Source: an uncultured Clostridia bacterium (GTDB lineage: Bacteria; Bacillota; Clostridia; Christensenellales; UBA1242). From it: 64,000 nucleotides of DNA. A program made the translations under genes and the position numbers. The stretch spans positions 1 to 64,000 of the forward strand of contig CALWNC010000004.1 in assembly GCA_944382715.1 (NCBI GenBank). The letters run 5' to 3'. This document shows, one piece after another, positions 10,922-11,085 of the stretch (positions within the stretch are counted from its first letter, which is position 1; every line of letters begins with the position of its first letter). The notes under the pieces were generated by a model. The model saw only the letters and a list, made by a program, of their open reading frames with translations, did not search any database and was not told where the DNA came from.

Positions 10922-11050
10922 ACGCAAAAAAGCCATACTACGCAAAAATGCATAATATGGCTTTTGATTCTTTAGTTTTTTTACATGAGAAAAATTGGCA
11001 GAATCTATTCTGTCTGTCTGTCTGTCTGTCTGTCTGTCTGTCTGTCTGTC
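10922..11050 (-). ncRNA. Candidate small RNA or attenuated leader beginning with a CAGA repeat
   Basis: A consensus promoter (11057-11085) predicts a start near 11050, so the transcript would open with about ten CAGA units. It would then pass about 40 mixed bases and end at a terminator-like hairpin (10928-10965) with a T-run. That makes about 125 bases in all. No ribosome site or usable ORF lies inside it. It could be a free small RNA or an attenuated leader for the membrane protein/pilin genes starting at 10715. This is inferred entirely from promoter and hairpin placement. Confidence 0.5.
10928..10965 (-). terminator. Terminator-like hairpin ahead of the pilin island
   Basis: A 10-bp perfect stem (AAAAGCCATA/TATGGCTTTT) with additional inner pairs across an 18-base loop. 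On the minus strand the 3' arm runs directly into TTTTTT. It sits about 210 bases upstream of the first island gene, so read-through would be needed for expression from the upstream promoter. Confidence 0.7.
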
Positions 11051-11051
11051 T
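11009..11051. repeat. Tetranucleotide microsatellite (TCTG/CAGA), 10.75 units
   Basis: A 43-base uninterrupted run of TCTG (plus strand), the only such simple repeat in the window. It lies between the -10 box at 11057-11062 and the hairpin at 10928-10965. Partial inverted arms (ATGAGAAA and TTTCTCAT) flank it. Runs of this kind change length by slippage and are classic phase-variation elements. Confidence 0.97.
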
Positions 11052-11056
11052 AAGCG

Positions 11057-11085
11057 ATTATAATTTCTCATATATTACCTGTCAA
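11057..11085 (-). promoter_or_regulatory. Perfect consensus sigma-A promoter upstream of the CAGA repeat
   Basis: Minus strand: -35 TTGACA (11080-11085), exactly 17 bases, -10 TATAAT (11057-11062). All twelve positions match consensus. The predicted start falls at the first bases of the CAGA run. Confidence 0.9.

Follow-up and report, generated by a model that had tools for sequence, protein, structure and literature searches.

Analysis of a 64,000-nucleotide stretch of DNA from an uncultured Clostridia bacterium (the window) revealed a GACA repeat, a consensus promoter and a terminator-like hairpin ahead of a pilin-like gene, elements that are real and most likely constitute a length-dependent on/off switch. 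The locus is probably a phase-variable transcription attenuator placed before a small pilin-like operon. The GACA and GCAGA arrays of Clostridia, Streptococcaceae and their phages almost always begin 0-7 nt after a sigma-A-like promoter.

Anatomy and genomic setting of the locus

The features of the locus, all on the minus strand, are listed below, with stop codons placed by their distance from the end of the array.

11144..11171 (-): weak candidate upstream promoter P1, TTTGCA-16-TAAAAT, 9/12 in the promoter scan
11085-11080 and 11062-11057 (-): consensus sigma-A-like promoter P2, TTGACA, 17-nt spacer, TATAAT, 12/12 in the promoter scan
10904..11071 (-): putative leader ORF of 55 aa, MRNYNRL(DRQT)n..., ATG at 11071, from the ORF list and frame analysis
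11009..11051 (-): perfect GACA (CAGA) tetranucleotide array, 10.75 units (10.8 copies), found by TRF
11005..11007 (-): OFF-frame stop codon, reached at +2 or -1 units; +1 nt after the array and ~40 nt ahead of the hairpin
10928..10965 (-): intrinsic terminator-like hairpin T2, 17 bp, loop TTTT, T tail, found by folding
10938..10940 (-): ON-like-frame stop codon, reached at +1 or -2 units; +68 nt, inside the hairpin 3' arm
10906-10904 (-): stop codon used at the present 10.75 units, +102 nt, past the hairpin
10284..10715 (-): small membrane-protein-like gene, 143 aa, first gene past the hairpin, from the ORF list, no Pfam match
8433..10238 (-): type IV pilin-like protein, 601 aa, N-terminal methylation motif PF07963

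P2 directly precedes the array, which makes up the first ~40 nt of any RNA that starts near 11050. The sequence-only reading had described a perfect TTGACA-17-TATAAT promoter, a transcript whose first 40 bases are CAGA repeats and a T-tailed hairpin about 125 bases further on. All three were borne out, by the 12/12 promoter at 11085-11057, by the TRF array at 11009-11051 and by a hairpin that ends ~122 nt past the expected P2 start and folds at -23.3 kcal/mol (z = -9.05; 0/200 shuffles were as good). T2 was absent from the output of a simple terminator scan, and Rfam scans gave no match at the gathering threshold for the array and hairpin elements. The array is the sole one of its kind, and no other (GACA)4 site was found in the 1.6-Mb genome with one mismatch allowed.

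The array, the hairpin and the genes for the 143-aa and 601-aa proteins form a 3.2-kb island between recA and rny. The island was missing in 7/7 same-genus genomes, in which rny directly follows recA. Since array and pilin genes share one island that is absent from the relatives, the array arrived with it and is most simply viewed as part of the pilin island. Homologues of the window pilin-like protein are present in its family, and two more pilin-like paralogues lie in the same genome (G000:C12:124-3400), with no GACA array near them because the genome's only one sits in the window. One same-genus genome, G001, carries a GACA array ahead of a gene, with a hairpin, at a different locus, and it has zero sequence in common with the window array outside the repeat. 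Two further elements were observed on the minus strand beside the island. The first is another perfect promoter-like site (11572-11545, TTGACA-16-TATAAT, with TG before the -10) that lies within the recA coding sequence, reads toward the island and is probably a coding coincidence. The second, spotted by eye, is a terminator-like hairpin with a T tail after recA (~11335-11304, AAAGAGATTAAT...ATTTAATCTCTTTTTT), which would set recA transcription apart from the island.

Repeat number and the leader reading frame

At the present repeat number the leader ORF is open across the array and the hairpin. The hairpin spans +45 to +79 nt after the array, versus stop codons at +1, +68 and +102 nt, and the repeat number thus sets whether the leader stops before the terminator or inside or past it. 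This arrangement recalls the Pil1 locus of Streptococcus gallolyticus, where the number of GCAGA repeats in a leader ORF determines the ribosome's stopping point with respect to a premature terminator, as reported from experiments (Danne et al. 2014, PMC3894217), and where the start site was mapped upstream of the leader gene (PMC3894217). The window likewise has a premature intrinsic terminator between the leader and the structural genes, and genes of the pilus/surface type downstream (the PF07963 pilin-like gene). The small ORF around the repeat has an ATG and an open frame with a weak SD-like AGG at 11080-11078, and the upstream transcription start is represented by the 9/12 candidate alone. 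A P1 transcript would include the leader start codon, and the P1 score is at chance level for such AT-rich DNA; together with the weak SD, this counts against an attenuator.

In the mechanism that we propose, a transcript starting upstream of the ATG at 11071 would carry the short leader ORF into the GACA array, and slippage would alter the unit number and with it the frame in which the ribosome exits. In the OFF frame the ribosome would stop 1 nt past the array, allowing the hairpin at 10965-10928 to form and transcription to end. In the two ON frames it would reach into or past the hairpin and block its folding, so that polymerase would enter the membrane-protein and pilin genes; the present 10.75 units would correspond to an ON frame. 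P2 stands apart from this mechanism as a conserved feature found with such arrays whatever the gene.

The earlier proposal of phase variation at the RNA level is thereby supported in part. That the hairpin gates read-through into the membrane-protein and pilin-like genes is very probable. The idea that slippage acts by changing the 5' end of the RNA found no support, as array length leaves the hairpin unchanged and shifts the position of the leader stop instead. A decision at the RNA level, proposed as the alternative to a frameshift, is likely, but a frame shift is involved all the same, in the leader ORF and not in the pilin gene.

Related loci were collected by scanning named genomes for TTGACA followed after 24-34 nt by (GACA)4. 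The scan yielded at least 118 stretches, nearly throughout from Bacillota among the matches listed, with arrays of two kinds: inside genes as (DRQT)n, or ahead of a gene with a terminator-like hairpin after the array. Genes with an internal (DRQT)n encode HsdS, EcoRI-type and C5 methyltransferases and acyltransferases and, in phages, PAPS-reductase-like proteins. The HsdS genes L187, L097, L265, L216, L452 and others carry the GACA array after a YRDLLLTF motif.

Thirty-two loci of the second, leader type were sorted by eye after viewing the sequence downstream of the array. In 30/32 of them, one of the three possible frames meets a stop codon no more than 6 nt past the array, a figure somewhat inflated because of the sorting by eye, compared with 34% at random cut points (binomial p about 2e-12) and 11/36 coding-type arrays. 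The remaining two frames generally reach into or beyond the hairpin. An ATG or GTG shortly follows the TTGACA box (-35) in 26/32 loci, and in 25/26 of these the leader frame runs without a stop as far as the array (17.2 expected in shuffled sequence). At most other leader loci the SD is strong, AAAAGGGG, versus the weak AGG in the window. An upstream promoter that would cover the SD and the ATG scores at least 9/12 in 18/31 leader loci (7.5 expected), often 10-12/12, and reaches 12/12 in L098, L117 and L128. The downstream genes mostly encode signal-peptide surface proteins, with Cna_B/FctA, Big_2, InlB-type and choline-binding repeats as examples and a type IV pilin at L128. This frame logic is common to about 30 clostridial loci, nearly all of which precede genes for signal-peptide surface proteins. 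A co-varying switch by pairing of the leader SD (AAAAGGGG) with CCCTTTT after the array was also considered and rejected, as partners from one locus paired no better than permuted ones (p = 0.25).

Length polymorphism was found at other GACA loci, the window species being represented by one assembly. The HsdS loci L097 and L187 have identical flanks and 7.25 versus 16.25 units, another identical-flank pair has 6.25 versus 9.25 units, and one leader locus occurs with 14.25, 16.25 and 20.25 units in flanks that are 96-98% identical.

A promoter at the start of the array

Arrays were gathered regardless of any promoter, and TTGAC[AG] was found within 70 nt upstream in 65/88 of those examined first, nearly always 29-35 nt from the array. 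In leader-type, HsdS and other loci the TATAAT match has a sharp maximum at a spacing of 17, and no such -10 peak was seen in arrays of the phage PAPS-reductase class (class C); the promoter reading is weaker for these arrays because the peak is missing. We scored these survey arrays by counting promoters of at least 9/12 that end 0-7 nt before the array. Such promoters were present before 50/56 unselected GACA arrays outside the phage PAPS-reductase class (1.1 in shuffles), 10/27 arrays of that class (0.3 in shuffles) and 22/24 GCAGA arrays of Streptococcaceae (0.8 in shuffles, 1.7 in moved windows). The mirrored position downstream of the arrays gave 0/74, and CAAT control arrays gave 2/62 (1.0 expected). 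Another dozen unselected arrays from viral contigs, treated separately as lacking TTGAC, scored at chance level.

The promoter precedes the array even within genes for HsdS, methyltransferases, acyltransferases and PAPS reductases, whose start codons lie further upstream. In two phage gene families, TTGACR lies 29-33 nt upstream in 22/22 array-bearing homologues (GACA, GCAGA, GAAC), compared with about 2/46 array-free homologues (Fisher 7e-16, relatedness uncorrected). Among PAPS-reductase homologues the array position shifts together with the TTGACR box (L199, L221 and L224 versus L197 and L229). The clostridial leaders have their SD before the -35 and their ATG inside the spacer, and many streptococcal loci have both inside the spacer. 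The promoter-to-array spacing is fixed while start codon and reading frame vary, and the promoter therefore seems to be tied to the repeat.

Two other accounts of the TTGACA box were ruled out. Protein-level conservation does not fit a box that occurs in different frames and outside coding sequence and that moves with the PAPS-reductase array, and a bond to the GACA unit does not fit its presence at GCAGA, GAAC, AAGC and ACAT arrays and its absence from CAAT arrays. Arrays with TTGAC are longer than those without (median 11.75 versus 8.5 units, p = 0.002), a difference confounded by lineage. Among phage genes, AAGC, ACAT and GAAC arrays directly follow a TTGACA box or promoter-like site at L225, L233, L306, L387, L423 and L479. 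Viral contigs (L197, L206, L213, L214, L229, L260 and others) carry GACA or GCAGA arrays, in or out of frame, in PAPS-reductase-like and C5-methyltransferase genes, which suggests that phage DNA-modification genes with such arrays are phase-variable.

Because the start codon lies upstream of its start site, an array-linked promoter cannot supply the ORF in which the array lies; P2 likewise fires downstream of the leader ATG and therefore cannot drive leader translation. Transcription raises repeat instability in E. coli plasmids, according to works cited in PMC7015867. As the promoter is of no use to the ORF, we propose that it increases slippage, and P2 most likely serves to initiate transcription within the repeat, which would raise the slippage rate. 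Promoters may thus help to make such repeats mutable. As a tentative generalization, which we hold with less than even confidence, the phase-variation repeats of Clostridia, Streptococcaceae and their phages (GACA and GCAGA, with a few AAGC, ACAT and GAAC) could be set exactly at the start site of a gene-embedded consensus promoter that acts as an encoded, tunable slippage accelerator. No description of a repeat-linked promoter as a wider regularity was found in the literature consulted.

P2 could instead be a working promoter for an untranslated ~120-nt RNA from the repeat to the hairpin, serving as a small RNA or a leaky-termination leader, which is the picture of the sequence-only reading. 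The 12/12 score of P2, a strong terminator hairpin at a fitting distance and the weakness of the upstream promoter candidate agree with this, and were P2 the sole promoter in the window, the ATG would be untranscribed and no leader would be made. We nevertheless regard such an RNA as unlikely: it has no Rfam match, the G001 array shares nothing with the window array beyond the repeat, and the open leader frame, the conserved SD and ATG, the stop right past the array in leader loci and the promoters before arrays inside genes would go unexplained. Less probable still is an alternative promoter that feeds the gene or operon part downstream of the array whatever the frame. P2 does point to the downstream gene in every context, but its RNA would reach the terminator untranslated in leader loci, and the HsdS stretches checked by eye had no in-frame ATG after the array. 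An ordinary slippery repeat beside a chance promoter-like sequence is very improbable, for although matches of at least 9/12 abound in AT-rich DNA (16 versus 13.2 expected in 2.5 kb), chance predicts about 1 promoter at the exact place, not those of 50/56 and 22/24 arrays against 2/62 CAAT controls, nor TTGACR in 22/22 array-bearing versus about 2/46 array-free homologues.

Relation to known switches

The attenuator proposed for the window resembles S. gallolyticus Pil1/Pil3 in having a repeat in a short leader ORF, a frame-set stop relative to a terminator and surface genes downstream. It differs in its GACA tetramer rather than GCAGA, in belonging to Clostridia rather than Streptococcus, in its type IV pilin-like gene rather than a sortase pilus, and in a repeat that begins right after a consensus promoter lying downstream of the leader ATG. 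The consulted text of PMC3894217 contains no description of an array-linked promoter, and a repeat-controlled leader attenuator was found in the literature consulted for S. gallolyticus alone. Classical tetranucleotide contingency loci (Haemophilus influenzae LOS; Moraxella and Haemophilus mod) are described as switching frame by slipped-strand mispairing. The HsdS, methyltransferase, acyltransferase and PAPS-reductase arrays resemble them, whereas the window would switch a leader frame and not that of a structural gene; a promoter directly before the array is absent from the accessible descriptions of the classical loci. At Neisseria meningitidis nadA (PMC2791445), too, a repeat beside promoter elements alters transcription, but there it alters the spacing of distal promoter elements (PMC2791445), whereas the window repeat follows the -10 and so has no effect on the spacing within the promoter.

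If the attenuator reading is true, a switch found so far in the pili of S. gallolyticus would prove to regulate surface proteins widely among gut Clostridia. That phase-variation repeats in unrelated genes have a promoter at their first base is an unexpected rule, and it opens the determinants of bacterial slippage rates to direct testing.
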